A stretch of 35,287 nucleotides of DNA from Bacillota bacterium (GTDB lineage: Bacteria > Bacillota > Sulfobacillia > UBA8153): assembly GCA_007130145.1 (NCBI GenBank), contig SLSY01000062.1:1-35287 (forward strand). The letters are read 5' to 3'. Below, piece after piece: positions 16,035 through 23,884 of the stretch; position 1 is the stretch's first letter; each line of letters opens with the position of its first letter. The notes below the pieces were generated by a model. It saw nothing but the letters and a program-made list of their open reading frames with translations, did no database searches and was not told the DNA's origin. Position numbers and translations under genes: made by a program.

Positions 16035-16461
16035 TCGCAATGATTACATGGTGCTGGAAGTGCCCAGCCTTCGAGAGAACGTGGCATTGGTGCGAGTGAC
16101 GGTAGCAGCTTTTGCAGCCCGCCTCCCTTTCACTATTGCCGAGCTCGAGGAACTCAAAGTCGCTGTCTCGGAGGCAGTGACCAACGCCATCGTCCACGCC
16201 TATCCTGCCACGACCGGGTGCATCCGCATTGAAGCGGTCATCATCGATGGCGGTGTGAAGGTGAGTGTGATTGATGACGGGCGCGGTCTCGTCGCCGCCA
16301 AGAGCAAAATTACAGACGAGGGGGAGGAGCAGCGCACGGGGATGGGATTCTCCTTTATGGAGTCTTTTACCGACGATCTCTCGGTCACTTCTCCCGCCCA
16401 GGGCGGCACCGCCGTGCATATGATTAAGCGCCCCGCCCGGCAGCGTGAAGAACATGAGTAG
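16027..16461 (+). CDS. spoIIAB: Anti-sigma-F factor / serine kinase SpoIIAB
   Basis: A 144-aa GHKL-fold kinase that binds and inhibits SigF and phosphorylates SpoIIAA. The N box is EAVTNA at 49-54, the G1 box DDGRG at 83-87, and the G2 region GMGFSFMESF at ~105-114. ATG 16027 is used; it is behind GGGGGAGAGAAG and overlaps spoIIAA. The end overlaps sigF. All three switch proteins are intact, so the forespore sigma switch should be functional. Confidence 0.95.
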   Translation: MHNRNDYMVLEVPSLRENVALVRVTVAAFAARLPFTIAELEELKVAVSEAVTNAIVHAYPATTGCIRIEAVIIDGGVKVSVIDDGRGLVAAKSKITDEGEEQRTGMGFSFMESFTDDLSVTSPAQGGTAVHMIKRPARQREEHE

Positions 16462-17194
16462 CCCCACCCAACCTGAGGAGAGCGATCTTCTCCCACGGGC
16501 CCAGGCCGGTGATACATCGGCTCGTGAAGAACTAGTACGCCAGCACAGCGGCTTGGTCTGGAGTGCAGTGAGGCGCTTCTCCCGCTGTGGCGAGGATTCA
16601 GAAGATCTCTTTCAGATCGGCGCACTGGGCCTGCTCAAGGCCATCGACCGCTTCGACCCCAGCTATAAGGTGCAATTCTCTACGTATGCCGTTCCTTTGA
16701 TCGTGGGCGAAATCCGTCGTTACCTGCGCGACCAGGGCCCGATGCGAGTAGCGCGCTCACTCAAGTCTCTTATCAGTCACATCGCCCGCATACGCCAAAA
16801 ACTCATGTCCAGTTTAGGGTATGAACCCTCGGTCTACGAAATTGCTCATGAGCTGGACGTATCCCCGGCTGATGTAGCGGCAGCCCTCGATGCCAACCGT
16901 CCTTTGCTGCATCTAGAAGAGCAGATCGGTGGAGACACAAAGGATCCAGTATACCTGCAAGACCGCATCGCCCAAGGGGGAGCTAGCGAAAAGGAGTGGG
17001 TGGACAGCGTCATGCTCCGTCAAAGTCTTGAACAACTCGACCCCCGACTGCGACACATCATGTTTTTGCGCTTCTTCGCCGACCGCACTCAGGCCGAGAT
17101 CGCCCGCGAAGTGGGCGTATCACAGGCTCAAGTCTCGCGGTTGGAGCAGCGCGGGCTGGCGCTGATGCGACGCTTCCTGGGCGACGGAACCTGA
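16454..17194 (+). CDS. sigF: RNA polymerase sigma-F factor
   Basis: The 246-aa first forespore-specific sigma factor. Region 2 contains DLFQIGALGLLKAIDRFDPSYKV in two recognisable blocks (DLFQIG and FSTYAVPLIVGEIRRYLRD). Region 4 ends with a helix-turn-helix, RTQAEIAREVGVSQAQVSRLE. ATG 16454 lies inside the end of spoIIAB with no strong ribosome site, implying translational coupling; an in-frame GTG lies at 16445. The 132-bp stretch after it holds the promoter of the MATE gene. Confidence 0.95.
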   Translation: MSSPTQPEESDLLPRAQAGDTSAREELVRQHSGLVWSAVRRFSRCGEDSEDLFQIGALGLLKAIDRFDPSYKVQFSTYAVPLIVGEIRRYLRDQGPMRVARSLKSLISHIARIRQKLMSSLGYEPSVYEIAHELDVSPADVAAALDANRPLLHLEEQIGGDTKDPVYLQDRIAQGGASEKEWVDSVMLRQSLEQLDPRLRHIMFLRFFADRTQAEIAREVGVSQAQVSRLEQRGLALMRRFLGDGT

Positions 17195-17326: not shown

Positions 17327-18811
17327 GTGGGCCAAGCCTTGACCAAATCTTCGGGCGTTCGAGATCTAACAACCGGCAGCATACCTAGACACTTGGTGAC
17401 GTTCGCCGTTCCCATGCTCATAGGTAACATGCTGCAGGCTCTCTACAACACCGTAGACGCCATTTGGGTGGGACGTTTTTTGGGACCTCAAGCACTGGCT
17501 GCCGTATCCGTCAGCTTCCCTATCATATTCGTCCTGATCACATTGCTCATGGGCGTAACCATGGCAACCACGGTGATGGTTGCCCAGTATGCCGGAGCCA
17601 AGCAGACCGAAATGGTGAAAAGGACCGTCAATAACTCCATGCTGCTCTTGCTGGGCGGTGGGGTGATCGCGTCGGTGCTTGGAATCCTTCTCCGCAAGCC
17701 CCTGCTTCGCCTCATCCACACGCCGCCTGAGATCTTGGACGATGCTGCCGCCTATATGATGGTGTTCATGGGTGGTCTGGTCTTCATGTTTGGTTCGCAT
17801 GTCTTTGGCGCCATCCTGCGCGGCCTGGGCGATTCGCGGACGCCTCTTGTGTTTCTCACCTACGCCACCATTACCAATATCATCTTAGACCCCATCCTCA
17901 TTTTTGGACTGGGCCCCATCCCGAGCATGGGCATCCAGGGAGCGGCCTTGGCCACGGTATTGGCCCAAGCACTGGCCACCGGCATAGCGATTCGCCACCT
18001 TAACCGCCGCAATCAGCTGGTGATATTCGATCCAAGACAGCTTCGCTTTGATGTTGAATTGACCAAATCAGTGATACGCATTGGCCTTCCCGCCGGCATT
18101 CAGCAAGTAGCCGTCTCCATGGGAAGCTTGGTCTTGATCTCCATCGTAAATCGCTTCGGGCACGTGATGACCGCTGCCTACGGAGCTGGGATACGACTGG
18201 ACGGGTTCGCCCTCATGCCTCTCATGTCACTGGGCATGGCCGTTTCAGCCATGGTGGGGCAAAATCTGGGCGCTGGCTACCATCACCGGGTTAAGGAGAT
18301 CGTGCGCTGGGGCGTTATCATGTCGTCGTCGCTTGCGGTGTTCTTCACCGTCCTTATGGTGGCGTTCCCCGGTGTGTTCATGTCCATTTTCACCGCTGAT
18401 GCTAAAGTATTGGCCGCCGGAGTCGAGTTCTTGCGTATCGTCAGCCTCTCCTTCCTCGGCATCGCCGTCCTGTTCACGTTCGGGGGAGCCTTGCGGGGGG
18501 CCGGCGATACTGTGCCGACCATGCTCATATCCACCGCTGCCCTTTGGTTACTTCGCATTCCGCTGGCAGCCTATCTTTCCTCCACTGCCTTGGGTGCACG
18601 CGGCATCTGGCTGGCCATGTTCATCAGCCCCTTCTTCGGTGGCGGGCTCAGCGTGGCGTATTATCTGACCGGACGCTGGCGCCAAAAGGTCGTGGTCAAA
18701 GGGTCTGACCCGACAACAAATCCAAAACCACAAGGCGACAACGAACGGGCCGAAACACCCCTGGTCGAAGGCCACGCCAGTGCATCCGGTCCCTCTGACA
18801 CACCTTCATAA
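17327..18811 (+). CDS. MATE family efflux transporter
   Basis: A 494-aa, about 12-segment membrane protein of the MATE (NorM/DinF-like) family, exporting drugs or metabolites in exchange for Na+ or H+. Typical blocks are FAVPMLIGNMLQALYNTVD near the N-terminus, IWVGRFLGPQALAAVSVSFP, and a duplicated second half starting near residue 240 (IRIGLPAGIQQVAVSMGSLV). A hydrophilic tail of about 45 residues rich in Pro, Ser and charged residues ends the protein. GTG 17327 follows AGGGGAG by 6 nt; the ATG at 17322 is out of frame and stops at once. It has its own promoter and breaks the usual sigF-spoVA adjacency. The substrate is unknown. Confidence 0.92.
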   Translation: MGQALTKSSGVRDLTTGSIPRHLVTFAVPMLIGNMLQALYNTVDAIWVGRFLGPQALAAVSVSFPIIFVLITLLMGVTMATTVMVAQYAGAKQTEMVKRTVNNSMLLLLGGGVIASVLGILLRKPLLRLIHTPPEILDDAAAYMMVFMGGLVFMFGSHVFGAILRGLGDSRTPLVFLTYATITNIILDPILIFGLGPIPSMGIQGAALATVLAQALATGIAIRHLNRRNQLVIFDPRQLRFDVELTKSVIRIGLPAGIQQVAVSMGSLVLISIVNRFGHVMTAAYGAGIRLDGFALMPLMSLGMAVSAMVGQNLGAGYHHRVKEIVRWGVIMSSSLAVFFTVLMVAFPGVFMSIFTADAKVLAAGVEFLRIVSLSFLGIAVLFTFGGALRGAGDTVPTMLISTAALWLLRIPLAAYLSSTALGARGIWLAMFISPFFGGGLSVAYYLTGRWRQKVVVKGSDPTTNPKPQGDNERAETPLVEGHASASGPSDTPS

Positions 18812-18851: not shown

Positions 18852-18882
18852 TGCATATTGCTGGCGTGGCCCTGAGATACTA
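18852..18882 (+). promoter_or_regulatory. Candidate SigG (or SigF) promoter of the spoVA operon
   Basis: TGCATA (18852-18857) and GATACTA (18876-18882), with an 18-bp spacer, match the forespore SigG pattern TGAATA / CATACTA at 5 of 6 and 6 of 7 positions. Transcription would start near 18889, one base before the GGAGGGAG ribosome site. spoVA is SigG-controlled in Bacillus. Confidence 0.55.
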
Positions 18883-18897
18883 GGCATGTGGAGGGAG

Positions 18898-19491
18898 ATG
18901 TCTGAAATCAACGGAGAACTCTTTGTCATCGTACGCAATCAGGTCAATGCGGCTCCAGGGCAGTCTCTCACCCTCGCTGATCTGGCTGAACTCGGGGGTG
19001 ACCAGGAGGTCATTGGCAAGATCAGCGGCATCGAAGCTATTGCCCATGCCCGAATGCATCAAGCCGTGTCCGCGCTGACCTTGGTACGGGCCATTCGTGC
19101 CGTAGCACCAAAGGTCAAGATTCACCTCATGGGTGCAACGCGGACGGTGGTGGAACCGATCATATCCGCCCCCAAGAGACTGCTTTGGCTGCGCACCGCC
19201 CTGGCCGCTGCGTTGTTATTTGTGGGTTCGGGGTTAGCCATCATGAATTTTCACGCAGACGTGGACATGCCCACGGTGCAAAGAGCGATTTACCAAGTGG
19301 TTGTGGGGGAGAGCCCCGAAAGGCTGGCCGTGATGCAGATCCCCTACTCGCTAGGAATTGGAGCGGGTATACTGCTCTTCTTCCGCGGAGCGGGTCGCGT
19401 GCGCGAACCCGGTCCATTGCAGTTGGAAACTGATGCCTACCAGCGTCGCATTATCCAGCATTACCAACGGCATGAGGAACGCGACGAGTGA
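18898..19491 (+). CDS. spoVAA: Stage V sporulation protein AA
   Basis: A 197-aa member of the SpoVA complex, which moves Ca-dipicolinic acid into the developing spore and out at germination. The soluble N-terminal part has the SpoVAA pattern (VIVRNQVNAAPGQSLTLADLA, seen as FVIVRNQVNAAPGQ then LTLADLAEL). Two hydrophobic segments follow at about 103-120 and 150-165. ATG 18898 is chosen because GGAGGGAG lies directly upstream; in-frame starts at 18847 and 18886 lie before the predicted transcription start. The stop overlaps spoVAB (GTGA). Confidence 0.88.
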   Translation: MSEINGELFVIVRNQVNAAPGQSLTLADLAELGGDQEVIGKISGIEAIAHARMHQAVSALTLVRAIRAVAPKVKIHLMGATRTVVEPIISAPKRLLWLRTALAAALLFVGSGLAIMNFHADVDMPTVQRAIYQVVVGESPERLAVMQIPYSLGIGAGILLFFRGAGRVREPGPLQLETDAYQRRIIQHYQRHEERDE

Positions 19492-19922
19492 CTTGGCATC
19501 ACTTCCTGCGACAGGCGACCGTCATGTTTGTCTGCCTAGGGAGCGGAACCGTCATCGGTATGGCCCTGATCGCATTCTTCACAGCGTTGGGGGTCATCAC
19601 CCGCCTGACGGAGGTGAGCCGTACCTACCGGCGAGAGGCTCTGTATGGATGGTGTGTGCTAGGCGGTGCCGTTCTCGGTAGCATCATGGCACAAAGCCAG
19701 GTCTCGCTGCGTGCCCCGGCGCCTCTCACGGCTTTTCTGGGTCTGTTCATGGGCATATTTGTGGGGATGATAGCCGCGGCTCTAACCGAAGTCATCAGTG
19801 TCATGCCGGTAGTTGGCAGGCGGCTTGAACTCGGTACCTACATTAAGTGGTTGGTCATCGTGTTTGCTCTGGGTAAGACCACAGGGTCTATCATCTACTG
19901 GCTCTTGGGGGTCTTCCCATAA
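19488..19922 (+). CDS. spoVAB: Stage V sporulation protein AB
   Basis: A 144-aa integral membrane protein with about four hydrophobic segments (~12-36, 53-68, 78-102, 118-142), characteristic of SpoVAB. Its GTG start overlaps the spoVAA stop by 4 bp, a coupled pair as in Bacillus. The conserved central block PAPLTAFLGLFMGIFVGM and the C-terminal FALGKTTGSIIYW support the call. It probably forms part of the inner-membrane dipicolinate channel; its own activity is not established. Confidence 0.88.
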   Translation: MTWHHFLRQATVMFVCLGSGTVIGMALIAFFTALGVITRLTEVSRTYRREALYGWCVLGGAVLGSIMAQSQVSLRAPAPLTAFLGLFMGIFVGMIAAALTEVISVMPVVGRRLELGTYIKWLVIVFALGKTTGSIIYWLLGVFP

Positions 19923-19947
19923 CCTTAGCGGAGGAAGGAGGATGAAT

Positions 19948-20145
19948 ATGTCTACCGTACACGTCATGGAATTGGTGGGCGAATCAGAGCGCAGCTGGGA
20001 ATCGGCTGCTACTAGTGCGGTAAGCCAAGCGGCCCACCGTGTGAACAACATCACTGGTGTGGAAATACTCAACTGGACCGCTGATATACGTGATGGTCGC
20101 GTGGTGAAATACAAGGCCAACGTCAAGATAGCCTACGTAGAGTAA
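19948..20145 (+). CDS. Dodecin family flavin-binding protein
   Basis: A 65-aa protein matching dodecin end to end: VMELVGESERSWESAA, a long helix AVSQAAHRVNNITGVE, then strands with the Trp of ILNWTADI and the ending VKYKANVKIAYVE. Dodecins are hollow dodecamers that bind flavins (riboflavin, FMN, FAD), each pair of isoalloxazine rings stacked between symmetry-related tryptophans; the Trp is present. ATG 19948 is 6 nt after AAGGAGG; the ATG at 19942 abuts the ribosome site. The gene lies 25 bp after spoVAB and 13 bp before spoVAC on the same strand, so it should be co-transcribed. Dodecin is not a known spoVA member. Confidence 0.9.
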   Translation: MSTVHVMELVGESERSWESAATSAVSQAAHRVNNITGVEILNWTADIRDGRVVKYKANVKIAYVE

Positions 20146-20158
20146 GGAGGAACATGAC

Positions 20159-20614
20159 ATGCCCAAGGCTACCGGCCGGGAAACCGCCGCTTATCAAAGG
20201 ATGATTGTGGCGAGCAAACCCAAGCGTCCCCTCGCCGAAAACCTCGTATGGGCCTTTGTGGTCGGAGGAGCCATCTGTCTGGTCGGTCAGGGCGTCAAGA
20301 ATATCATCATGAAGGCCGAGGGGCTCACGCCCACAGAGGCGGGACCGCCGACAGTGGGGGTTATGATCTTTTTGGGGGCCTTGTTCACCGGTCTGGGCGT
20401 ATATGACCGACTGGCACGCTTTGGCGGCATGGGAGCAAACCTTCCCATCACCGGTTTTGCCAATGCCATCGTGGCTCCGGCCATGGAGTATCAACGCGAA
20501 GGCTTAGTTCTCGGGGTGTCGGCTCGCATGTTCACCGTAGCCGGCCCTGTCATTGTCCATGCCGTGGTGGTTGCGGTCATTGTGGGAACCCTCTCCCATT
20601 TCGTAGGTAAGTAG
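20159..20614 (+). CDS. spoVAC: Stage V sporulation protein AC
   Basis: A 151-aa membrane protein with the SpoVAC pattern: a basic N-terminus, then four or five hydrophobic segments. The conserved blocks are NLVWAFVVGGAICLVGQG, GVMIFLGALFTGLGVYDRL, and GANLPITGFANAIVAPAMEY. SpoVAC of Bacillus behaves as a mechanosensitive channel for dipicolinate release. ATG 20159 follows AAGGAGG by 8 nt, and spoVAD begins immediately at its stop codon. Confidence 0.95.
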   Translation: MPKATGRETAAYQRMIVASKPKRPLAENLVWAFVVGGAICLVGQGVKNIIMKAEGLTPTEAGPPTVGVMIFLGALFTGLGVYDRLARFGGMGANLPITGFANAIVAPAMEYQREGLVLGVSARMFTVAGPVIVHAVVVAVIVGTLSHFVGK

Positions 20615-21658
20615 GTGGCAGACATCAAGGAGTTATCCCCAAAGCGAATGGGGGAGCACACTCTCTGCTTTCCCACCCGGCCTGCGATCCTGTCCACAGC
20701 CAGCATCGCGGGACCCCAGGAAGGTGATGGTCCCTTCGGTGATATGTTTGATGTGGTCAAAGCCGACACCCTTCTGGGTGAAAAGACCTGGGAGAAGGCA
20801 GAGGTTCGCATGTTGCAGGAAGCGCTGGAATTATGTGTATACAAGGCGGGATGGGGCTTGAGTGACGTGCAGATGCTGTTTTGTGGTGATTTGCTAAACC
20901 AGCTGTCTGCGTCCCATTACGCTGTGCGTGATTTCCCGGTGCCGTTCTTTGGACTCTACGGTGCATGCTCCACCTTTGTTGAAGGCCTTATCTTGGGCGC
21001 TCTTGCCGTGGACGGAGGATACGCCAGCCATCTTGTGGTAGGGTCATCATCTCACCACGACACGGCCGAACGGCAGTATCGCTATCCTACCGAGTTTGGC
21101 CACCAAAGGCCCACCACGGCCCAATGGACAGTTTGCGGAGCCGGTGCCGCAGCGCTGGGACAGGGTCAGGGTCCCCTCATTACCCATGCCACGCCGGGGC
21201 GCATTGTGGACCCAGGTATCAAGGATGTGAATGATATGGGTTCGGCCATGGCGCCCGCAGCCGCAGACACATTCATCACGCACCTTGCCGATACCGGTCG
21301 CACGGTCGATGATTACGATCTCATCGTCACGGGCGACTTGGGGCGGATGGGCAAGTCTTTGCTTGTGACCTTACTCAAGCACAAGAACGTTGATCTGTCC
21401 CAGCGGTTGCTTGACTGCGGCAGCATTTTGTATGACCACACCGCCGAAGTCATGAGCGGCGCTTCGGGCTGTGGGTGTATCGCCATCATGTTTGCTGGCT
21501 ACTTGTTTGCAGAGATGCAAGCAGGGCGCGCCCAGCGCATATTGCTTCTAGCCAATGGGAGCCTGCACAGTCCCGACACCATACAACAGGGAGAAACCCT
21601 TCCCGGTATTGCCCATGCTGTGGCTCTGGAAAACTCTCGTGGAGGGGATGCAGAATGA
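20615..21658 (+). CDS. spoVAD: Stage V sporulation protein AD
   Basis: A 347-aa soluble SpoVA component with a thiolase-like fold that binds dipicolinic acid on the outer face of the spore inner membrane. Visible conserved blocks are CFPTRPAILSTASIAGPQEG, FFGLYGACSTFVEGL with C118, FGHQRPTTAQWTVCGAGAA, and SGASGCGCIAIMFAGY. The GTG start directly follows the spoVAC stop, and the 3' end overlaps the spoVAE ATG. The length is typical. Confidence 0.96.
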   Translation: MADIKELSPKRMGEHTLCFPTRPAILSTASIAGPQEGDGPFGDMFDVVKADTLLGEKTWEKAEVRMLQEALELCVYKAGWGLSDVQMLFCGDLLNQLSASHYAVRDFPVPFFGLYGACSTFVEGLILGALAVDGGYASHLVVGSSSHHDTAERQYRYPTEFGHQRPTTAQWTVCGAGAAALGQGQGPLITHATPGRIVDPGIKDVNDMGSAMAPAAADTFITHLADTGRTVDDYDLIVTGDLGRMGKSLLVTLLKHKNVDLSQRLLDCGSILYDHTAEVMSGASGCGCIAIMFAGYLFAEMQAGRAQRILLLANGSLHSPDTIQQGETLPGIAHAVALENSRGGDAE

Positions 21659-22008
21659 TGGACTTCGCACTTGCTTTCGTCGTCGGGGGACTCATGTGTA
21701 TGCTTGCCCAACTCGCCCTGGATCTGACGGAAATGAACCCGGCCATGTTGATGGTGGTCTTCGTGTCACTGGGTGCGGTGGCCAGCGGTCTGGGACTCTA
21801 CGCCCCATTGGTAGAAATCGCCGGAGCCGGGGCCAGCATACCCTTGCCAGCCTTCGGTCATGCCCTGGTGGAGGGCATCGGGCAGGACGTAGACCAATAC
21901 GGTCCACTCGGCATTCTGTCCGGCGGTCTGCGGGCAACGGCGGTGGGTTTGACGGTGGCCATACTCTCCGGATATCTCATGGCCATCGTCTTCACCCCCA
22001 AGGGATGA
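21655..22008 (+). CDS. spoVAE: Stage V sporulation protein AE (AEb type)
   Basis: A 117-aa membrane protein homologous to SpoVAC in its repeated topology, with LAFVVGGLMCMLAQLALDL, GLGLYAPLVEIAGAGASIPL and GFGHALVEG-like (here AFGHALVEGIGQ) blocks. ATG 21655 is 7 nt after GGAGGGG and overlaps the spoVAD stop; the same frame is open far upstream but only as an overlap with spoVAD. Together C, D and E are the minimal conserved SpoVA set of spore formers. Confidence 0.94.
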   Translation: MMDFALAFVVGGLMCMLAQLALDLTEMNPAMLMVVFVSLGAVASGLGLYAPLVEIAGAGASIPLPAFGHALVEGIGQDVDQYGPLGILSGGLRATAVGLTVAILSGYLMAIVFTPKG

Positions 22009-22414: not shown

Positions 22415-23884
22415 ATGGACAAAGAGCGCAAGTGGGCGTTGCGACGGAAACTCGACGAAAACCTGGCTATCCTTGAGAAGGAACTGGGGGTTGGTGAGAG
22501 TTTCGATGTTATCGTGCGAAAATTCACCATTGGCGGTCGCAAGGCAGCTTTGGTATTCTTGGATGGCTTCGCCAAAGATTTGGTCATGCAAGGAGTAACC
22601 GAGTTCTTGCTCAAGACACAGAGATCCCAGGTCGTCCCCCACGTCATCCGCGACCTCATCGAAAAACGTCTGACCTTTATCGAAGCGGGAACCGTCAATG
22701 ACATCAACGAGCTCATTGACGAAGTTCTGGCCGGGCCGCTGGCCCTGCTGGTTGATGGGGAGAAGGAGGCCATCCTCATCGATGCCCGGGAGTATCCGGG
22801 TCGCAATCCGGATGAGCCAGACCTGGAACGAGTTCTGCGAGGTTCCCGCGACGGATTCGTGGAGACGCTGATCTTTAACGTCTCGCTGGTGCGCCGTCGC
22901 ATTCGTGACCGCTTCCTACGAACCGAGGTGCTTAGCATCGGCTCGCGTTCTAAGACGGATGTGTGCTTTATGTATATAAAGGACATCGCCAATCCCACTC
23001 TGGTACAAGAGATCCGCGATCGCCTTGCCAACATTGTAGTAGATGCCATTCCCATGGCTGAAAAGACGGTAGAGGAGTTCATCGTGGACAAGTACGACTG
23101 GTGGAATCCCTTTCCCATTGTCCGCTATACCGAACGGCCAGATGTGGTCGCGGTTCATCTATTGGAAGGGCATGTCGCCATCATGGTGGACACCTCGCCG
23201 GGTTGCTTGATCCTTCCCGCTACACTGTTTCACCACGTTCAGCATGCGGAGGAATTCCGGGATAATGTTGCCATCGGTGCCTATATGCGCTGGGTACGCT
23301 TCTTGGGGCTGCTTTTTGCCTGGTTTGGAACGCCTCTTTGGCTGCTCCTTGCCACCAACCGCGCCCTCGTACCCCCCTTTTTAGCGTTCATTGGACCTCA
23401 ACAGCCAACCGCTCTGCCCCTCGGTATGCAGTTCATCATCGCCGAGGTGGCCGTGGATCTGATTCGCATTGCCCTCATTCACACGCCCAATGCTCTGGCC
23501 ACTTCTTTGGGATTCATCGGCGCCTTGCTACTGGGAGAGATGGCCATTGAGATTGGACTGTTTGCAGCCGAAACCGTCATTTATGTGGCCGTAGCAGCCA
23601 TCGGTACCTTTGCCTCACCCAGTATGGAGTTTGGTCAGGCCATCCGGTTGTTTCGCTTGCTCTTTATCATCTTAGTCTTTGCCTTCGGCCCGGCGGGTCT
23701 CGCGGTAGGCCTAATCTTCAATGCGGCTCTGCTGCTGCTGACCAAATCCTTTTCCGTCCCGTACCTATGGCCCTTGTTACCTTTTGACTGGCGAGGGATG
23801 AAAGCGATTCTGGTGCGCCAACCCGTGCCGGTGCAGCATGTCCGCCTGGGCATTCTCAGACCCCAAAAGCGACGCAAGCGGTGA
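22415..23884 (+). CDS. spoVAF: Stage V sporulation protein AF (GerA family)
   Basis: A 489-aa protein of the GerA/SpoVAF family related to germinant-receptor A subunits. The N-terminal soluble half (~1-280) contains the conserved IEAGTVNDINELIDEVLAGP and DTSPGCLILPATLFHHVQHAEE-type core (here VDTSPGCLILPATLF). The C-terminal half has about five membrane segments from ~290 to 450 and a basic tail KRRKR. AAGGAG lies about 10 nt before ATG. SpoVAF forms a channel with FigP in Bacillus that amplifies germination; that is family knowledge. The last gene of the operon; no clear terminator follows. Confidence 0.95.
   Translation: MDKERKWALRRKLDENLAILEKELGVGESFDVIVRKFTIGGRKAALVFLDGFAKDLVMQGVTEFLLKTQRSQVVPHVIRDLIEKRLTFIEAGTVNDINELIDEVLAGPLALLVDGEKEAILIDAREYPGRNPDEPDLERVLRGSRDGFVETLIFNVSLVRRRIRDRFLRTEVLSIGSRSKTDVCFMYIKDIANPTLVQEIRDRLANIVVDAIPMAEKTVEEFIVDKYDWWNPFPIVRYTERPDVVAVHLLEGHVAIMVDTSPGCLILPATLFHHVQHAEEFRDNVAIGAYMRWVRFLGLLFAWFGTPLWLLLATNRALVPPFLAFIGPQQPTALPLGMQFIIAEVAVDLIRIALIHTPNALATSLGFIGALLLGEMAIEIGLFAAETVIYVAVAAIGTFASPSMEFGQAIRLFRLLFIILVFAFGPAGLAVGLIFNAALLLLTKSFSVPYLWPLLPFDWRGMKAILVRQPVPVQHVRLGILRPQKRRKR

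Follow-up and report, generated by a model that had tools for sequence, protein, structure and literature searches.

A Dodecin Gene of the sigF-spoVA Cluster in Bacillota, Probably Expressed in the Forespore and with a Pocket Probably Rebuilt for a Ligand Other than Flavin

Gene Content of the Locus

In the window, the whole 35,287-nucleotide stretch of DNA that was analyzed, sigF, a MATE transporter gene, spoVAA, spoVAB, a dodecin gene, spoVAC, spoVAD, spoVAE, and a GerA/SpoVAF gene are all encoded on the + strand, and the operon begins at spoVAA (Table 1). The position of the dodecin gene between spoVAB and spoVAC, with flanking gaps of 25 and 13 bp, had been proposed from a sequence-only reading of the window and was borne out by the Pfam matches and the sequence. 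These gaps apply if translation starts at 19948, the second ATG, which is the better start because the ribosome-binding site GGAGGAAGGAGG ends 6 nt upstream of it. The presence of this site agrees with the perfect ribosome-binding site described in that reading. A scan of the window for sigma-70-like promoters and for terminators found none on the + strand between spoVAA and spoVAC, also in line with that reading. The ribosome-binding site of spoVAC overlaps the dodecin stop codon, suggesting that translation of the two genes is coupled. The dodecin gene is single-copy in the 2.4-Mb genome assembly. The MATE transporter gene between sigF and spoVAA is a feature of this genome and is not found at that place in most relatives.

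Table 1. Features of the sigF-spoVA region of the window, with the evidence used to name them.
Feature	Position	Strand	Evidence and remarks
spoIIAA/spoIIAB-like pair		+	Named from position and size
sigF (spoIIAC), forespore sigma factor	16445..17194	+	NCBIfam TIGR02885 spore_sigF, 266.7 bits; best hit, below the strict cut-off of the model
MATE-family transporter	17327..18811	+	Pfam MatE, 229.9 bits
Candidate sigma-G-like forespore promoter before spoVAA, GCATA-N18-GATACTA	18853..18882	+	8/9 consensus positions
spoVAA	18898..19491	+	Pfam SporV_AA, 32.3 bits; GGAGGGAG precedes start 18898; other ORF start 18847
spoVAB	19488..19922	+	Pfam SpoVAB, 104.2 bits; 4-nt overlap with spoVAA
Dodecin ribosome-binding site GGAGGAAGGAGG	19930..19941	+	Sequence
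Spore-type dodecin, 65 aa	19948..20145	+	Pfam PF07311, 72.7 bits; alternative start 19942 gives 67 aa
Gly39 codon (numbered from ATG 19942), at the stacking Trp position of flavin dodecins	20056..20058	+	Profile alignment
spoVAC ribosome-binding site AAGGAGG	20144..20150	+	Sequence; overlaps the dodecin stop codon
spoVAC	20159..20614	+	Pfam SpoVAC_SpoVAEB, 127.1 bits
spoVAD	20615..21658	+	Pfam SpoVAD, 439.5 bits
spoVAE (spoVAEb)	21655..22008	+	Pfam, 97.2 bits; TIGR02839, 123.6 bits
spoVAF/GerA-type protein	22415..23884	+	Pfam GerA, 500.5 bits; 406-bp gap before the gene

The Encoded Protein Has a Dodecin Fold

The protein belongs to the PF07311 family (72.7 bits against a cut-off of 22.5) and has its beta-alpha-beta-beta fold; its scores against the stricter dodecin equivalogs of NCBIfam were below their cut-offs. 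The AlphaFold2 model of the monomer reached a pLDDT of 96.6, and Foldseek superposed it on the dodecin of H. halophila (2vxa) with a TM score of 0.92 and an rmsd of 0.8. The best fold matches in the PDB were all dodecins, with TM scores of 0.81-0.92 to solved members of the family. The spore type thus shares the family, fold, length, and ungapped core of the dodecins of T. thermophilus (TTHA1431, 2cz8), H. halophila (2vxa), and M. tuberculosis (Rv1498A, 3oqt). One spore-type dodecin (L024:1495-1830) carries a long Gln/Gly/Ser repeat tail (QGQGQSQS...).

Linkage with sigF and spoVA Genes Is Conserved

A dodecin was present in 34/41 genomes of the class, and was encoded directly 5′ of spoVAC in 28 of the 30 loci fetched from it. 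A signature scan for this dodecin type across 84,980 species genomes returned 190 confirmed dodecins, and the same gene cluster surrounded most of the best 80, to which the analysis was restricted. Cultured organisms were among them, with dodecin-spoVAC-spoVAD in the record of Syntrophomonas palmitatica, sigF-dodecin-spoVAC-AD-AE in that of a Tepidanaerobacter sp., and sigF-dodecin at a contig end in that of Carboxydothermus islandicus. In 110 neighborhoods, those of the better-scoring dodecins of a 399-genome sample of the phylum, sigF and/or spoVAC/AD/AF adjoined the dodecin gene on the same strand in 100 cases (sigma/spoVA genes on both sides in 79, on one side in 21, and on neither in 10). 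Over the 239 fetched loci, which partly overlap, spoVAC was downstream in 188 and sigF upstream in 176. Many relatives lack spoVAA and spoVAB beside the dodecin gene, and the usual order is therefore sigF-dodecin-spoVAC-spoVAD-spoVAE. Where spoVAC does not adjoin the dodecin gene, a GerA/SpoVAF gene often does. A survey for other spore formers with a dodecin gene by spoVA had been named beforehand as the way to recognize a chance insertion; the arrangement is widespread, and this recurrent same-strand linkage across genera excludes that explanation.

The spoVA operons of B. subtilis and Clostridioides difficile, which are transcribed in the forespore, have the same SpoVAC-SpoVAD-SpoVAE core as the window, but no dodecin. 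Some dodecin copies of Bacillota, such as those of the Moorella group, are unlinked to sigF or spoVA, and they were scattered in a single-gene tree. This tree, built on 70 columns, was poorly resolved and did not reject a single spore-type clade (p-AU 0.958), so that it gives only weak grounds for regarding the linkage as ancestral, which it probably is. Among the viral contigs searched, no confirmed dodecin copy was found.

Several individual loci were also recorded. In Moorella stamsii (L137) and in L217, the unlinked spore-type dodecin gene adjoins nadA, an oppositely oriented gene for quinolinate synthase. Quinolinate and dipicolinate are isomers, but the link may be due to chance. In L209, a CotJB gene was observed nearby.

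Dodecin Co-Occurs with SpoVAD

The phylum sample, composed of 399 evenly drawn genomes, contained 221 genomes with a dodecin and 344 with a SpoVAD over the cut-off. Dodecins were nearly restricted to spore formers, being found in 218/344 genomes with SpoVAD and in 3/55 without it (Fisher p = 3e-17, uncorrected for shared ancestry), and two of these three exceptions encode a dodecin of another type, similar to SecE2. Such SecE2-like proteins, of the RVAEV type, were observed in two Bacillota lacking SpoVAD (G219 and G370; loci L179, L226, and L227), one of which (G370) has a second dodecin.

About a third of the sampled genomes with SpoVAD (126/344) had no dodecin, and B. subtilis had no PF07311 match over the cut-off, indicating that spores can generally be formed without dodecin. 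We also considered dodecin as a replacement for SpoVAEa. The two were not mutually exclusive, SpoVAEa being found in 58/218 genomes with dodecin and in 41/126 without it among those with SpoVAD (p = 0.27), and this possibility was rejected.

Forespore-Type Promoter Sequences Are Enriched before Dodecin Genes

The 300 nt located 5′ of the dodecin genes, after the sigF stop codon, were scanned with sigma-G-like (GNATA-N17-19-CATNNTA) and sigma-F-like (GNATA-N14-16-GGNNANNNTA) patterns, the consensus patterns of B. subtilis. Sites of these types were strongly enriched compared to dinucleotide shuffles and to the reverse strand, and no enrichment was seen in the same regions for sigma-A, -E, and -H patterns. 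Perfect sites preceded 20 of the 111 non-redundant dodecin genes, where shuffled sequences gave 0.8 and the reverse strand gave 0, and sites matching at 8/9 or better preceded 71/111, against 10.7 expected in shuffles. Most perfect sites were located 22-58 nt before the dodecin start, so that in many loci no other gene separates dodecin from the promoter. In the Moorella group, the unlinked copies were preceded by the sigma-F-like sequence GGATT-N14-GGGAATAATA or by close variants of it; the copies that share this site are close relatives of each other. In the window itself, 25 sites matched at 8/9 over both strands, and the one preceding spoVAA therefore proves little alone and is only suggestive.

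These results, together with the conserved linkage, strongly suggest that dodecin is transcribed in the forespore with the genes of the dipicolinate (DPA) channel, as had been supposed from the operon in the window, the enriched consensus and predicted sites pointing to control by sigma-F/G.

The Ligand Pocket Differs from That of Flavin Dodecins

In dodecin, flavin is described as being sandwiched between Trp residues (PMC7414021), Trp39 in the case of M. tuberculosis Rv1498A (PMC8044443), and PDB entries name the Thermus dodecin mutants W38F, R45A, and R65A. A profile alignment to solved dodecins (2vxa, 6r1e, and others) was ungapped through the ligand strand. At the stacking position, the 125 non-redundant spore-type sequences had Gly (122) or Ala (3) and never Trp. 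The protein of the window has Gly39, contrary to the earlier statement that it keeps the stacking Trp; this statement probably referred to Trp45, a residue located six positions further that is not conserved, most relatives having Leu, Met, or Phe there. Other positions also differ from the bacterial flavin dodecins, next to which the spore type is further set apart by its place in a sigF-spoVA cluster with forespore-type promoters. In the numbering of T. thermophilus, Glu44 is replaced by Asn in 121/125 sequences, Arg45 by Thr in 123/125 (Thr46 in the window), and Gln57 by Lys or Arg in 125/125 (Lys58 in the window). Gly39, Asn44, Thr46, and Lys58 were among the 14 most conserved of the 67 positions and, with Asn60, form a conserved pocket set (all numbered from ATG 19942). 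A pocket that is altered yet constant points to another ligand rather than to decay, and these residues suggest that it has probably been rebuilt for a ligand other than flavin.

The calcium dodecin of M. tuberculosis (SecE2/Rv0379, 3onr) was the sole PDB match in a single-sequence search. It has the SWExA helix start of the spore type and likewise lacks the flavin Trp, but its strand reads RVARV where the spore type has TGVEI, its Glu and Asp correspond to Asn and Thr, and the fold of the spore type is less close to it (TM 0.83) than to 2vxa (TM 0.92).

Gly-type dodecins of haloarchaea were 53.8% (Haladaptatus) and 46.4% (Halobaculum) identical to one spore-type relative (L007). They share the Gly at the Trp position and the Thr at the Arg position, but have Asp or Gly in place of Asn44, no spore genes nearby, and universal stress or CBS-domain neighbors. 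Two haloarchaeal plasmids (L240 and L241) encode such proteins, and the gene of L240 has two universal stress protein genes next to it. A record labeled as an archaeon (L126) has a close Gly-type dodecin (GVHVVGFTAKV); its neighbor is a GH57-like protein, and sigF and spoVA are absent. Trp-less dodecins also occur without spores in Meiothermus, Microvirga, and others. Since those of haloarchaea and Meiothermus are far from spore genes, loss of the flavin site is not by itself a sign of a role in spores, and the spore type appears to belong, as one branch, to a broader set of non-flavin dodecins.

Possible Roles of the Spore-Type Dodecin

The reading that we prefer, with a probability of about 0.6, is that of a spore-type dodecin made in the forespore with the Ca-dipicolinate channel genes and buffering a small anionic or metal ligand. 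As a conserved and probably ancestral member of the sigF-spoVA cluster in many Bacillota, it would be transcribed in the forespore together with these genes and would probably assemble there, in the future spore core, into the usual hollow dodecamer. The cage may then buffer or store its ligand during loading of the core and let it go at germination. The fold family, the linkage, the co-occurrence with SpoVAD, and the pocket residues were observed directly, and from there we infer the dodecamer, its location in the spore core, its ligand, and its role. Ca2+ or dipicolinate comes first as a candidate ligand because the partner genes move Ca-DPA; this is a guess from gene partnership, as is a spore-core Ca2+/DPA buffer, proposed from expression with the channel genes and from the conserved Lys and Asn of the pocket. 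It is unlikely that the cage carries Ca2+ and/or dipicolinate in the forespore or nucleates them there, representing a third kind of dodecin beside the flavin and calcium kinds that was lost in the model organisms used to study sporulation.

Flavin was the ligand first proposed for this protein, loaded into the core as a reserve for germination, with a dipicolinate-like aromatic ligand as an alternative that may hold; a dodecin could also quench the flavin against light damage. Flavin binding is described for characterized dodecins from Mycobacterium, Thermus, Streptomyces, and Halobacterium (PMC8044443, PMC7414021), which have the same fold. However, none of the 125 sequences has the stacking Trp, and other residues replace the Arg and Gln that contact flavin, so that loading by the known mode is unlikely; in addition, dodecins of the T. 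thermophilus type seem absent from the phylum sample, in which the best matches had 42-43% identity and were of the Gly type where read. A flavin store is thus very improbable.

The stress genes beside the haloarchaeal cousins and the unlinked copies of Bacillota would fit a general stress or metal-buffering dodecin, also expressed in vegetative cells and located beside sigF through an old chance linkage, but the near-restriction to genomes with SpoVAD and the forespore-type promoters directly upstream, those of some unlinked copies included, make this distinctly unlikely. It is also quite doubtful that dodecin has a structural or regulatory part in the SpoVA channel, be it as a soluble plug or an accessory similar to SpoVAD or SpoVAEa, with no ligand store. 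Such a partner would account for the tight place in the operon before spoVAC, with its overlapping ribosome-binding site, and for the GerA/SpoVAF-type gene that can stand in for spoVAC as a neighbor, but SpoVAEa is neither excluded by dodecin nor associated with it, and we know of no dodecin that acts as a channel partner.

The association of dodecin with spoVA was not found in the literature searched, which misses most subscription papers, and the few papers joining dodecin with spores or sporulation look unrelated from their titles and abstracts. The sporulation gene survey PMC3533761 includes SpoVAC-SpoVAD-SpoVAE in its core list, and it contains no occurrence of dodecin. A spore-operon dodecin is therefore likely undescribed so far, and was apparently overlooked because sporulation gene lists draw on B. 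subtilis and a small number of clostridia, all without dodecin.

Well over half of the sampled genomes bearing SpoVAD encode this apparently overlooked dodecin. It would offer a soluble and readily purified handle on other cargo of the spore core that is packed or released beside Ca-DPA, and it would define a branch of the dodecins with a non-flavin ligand.
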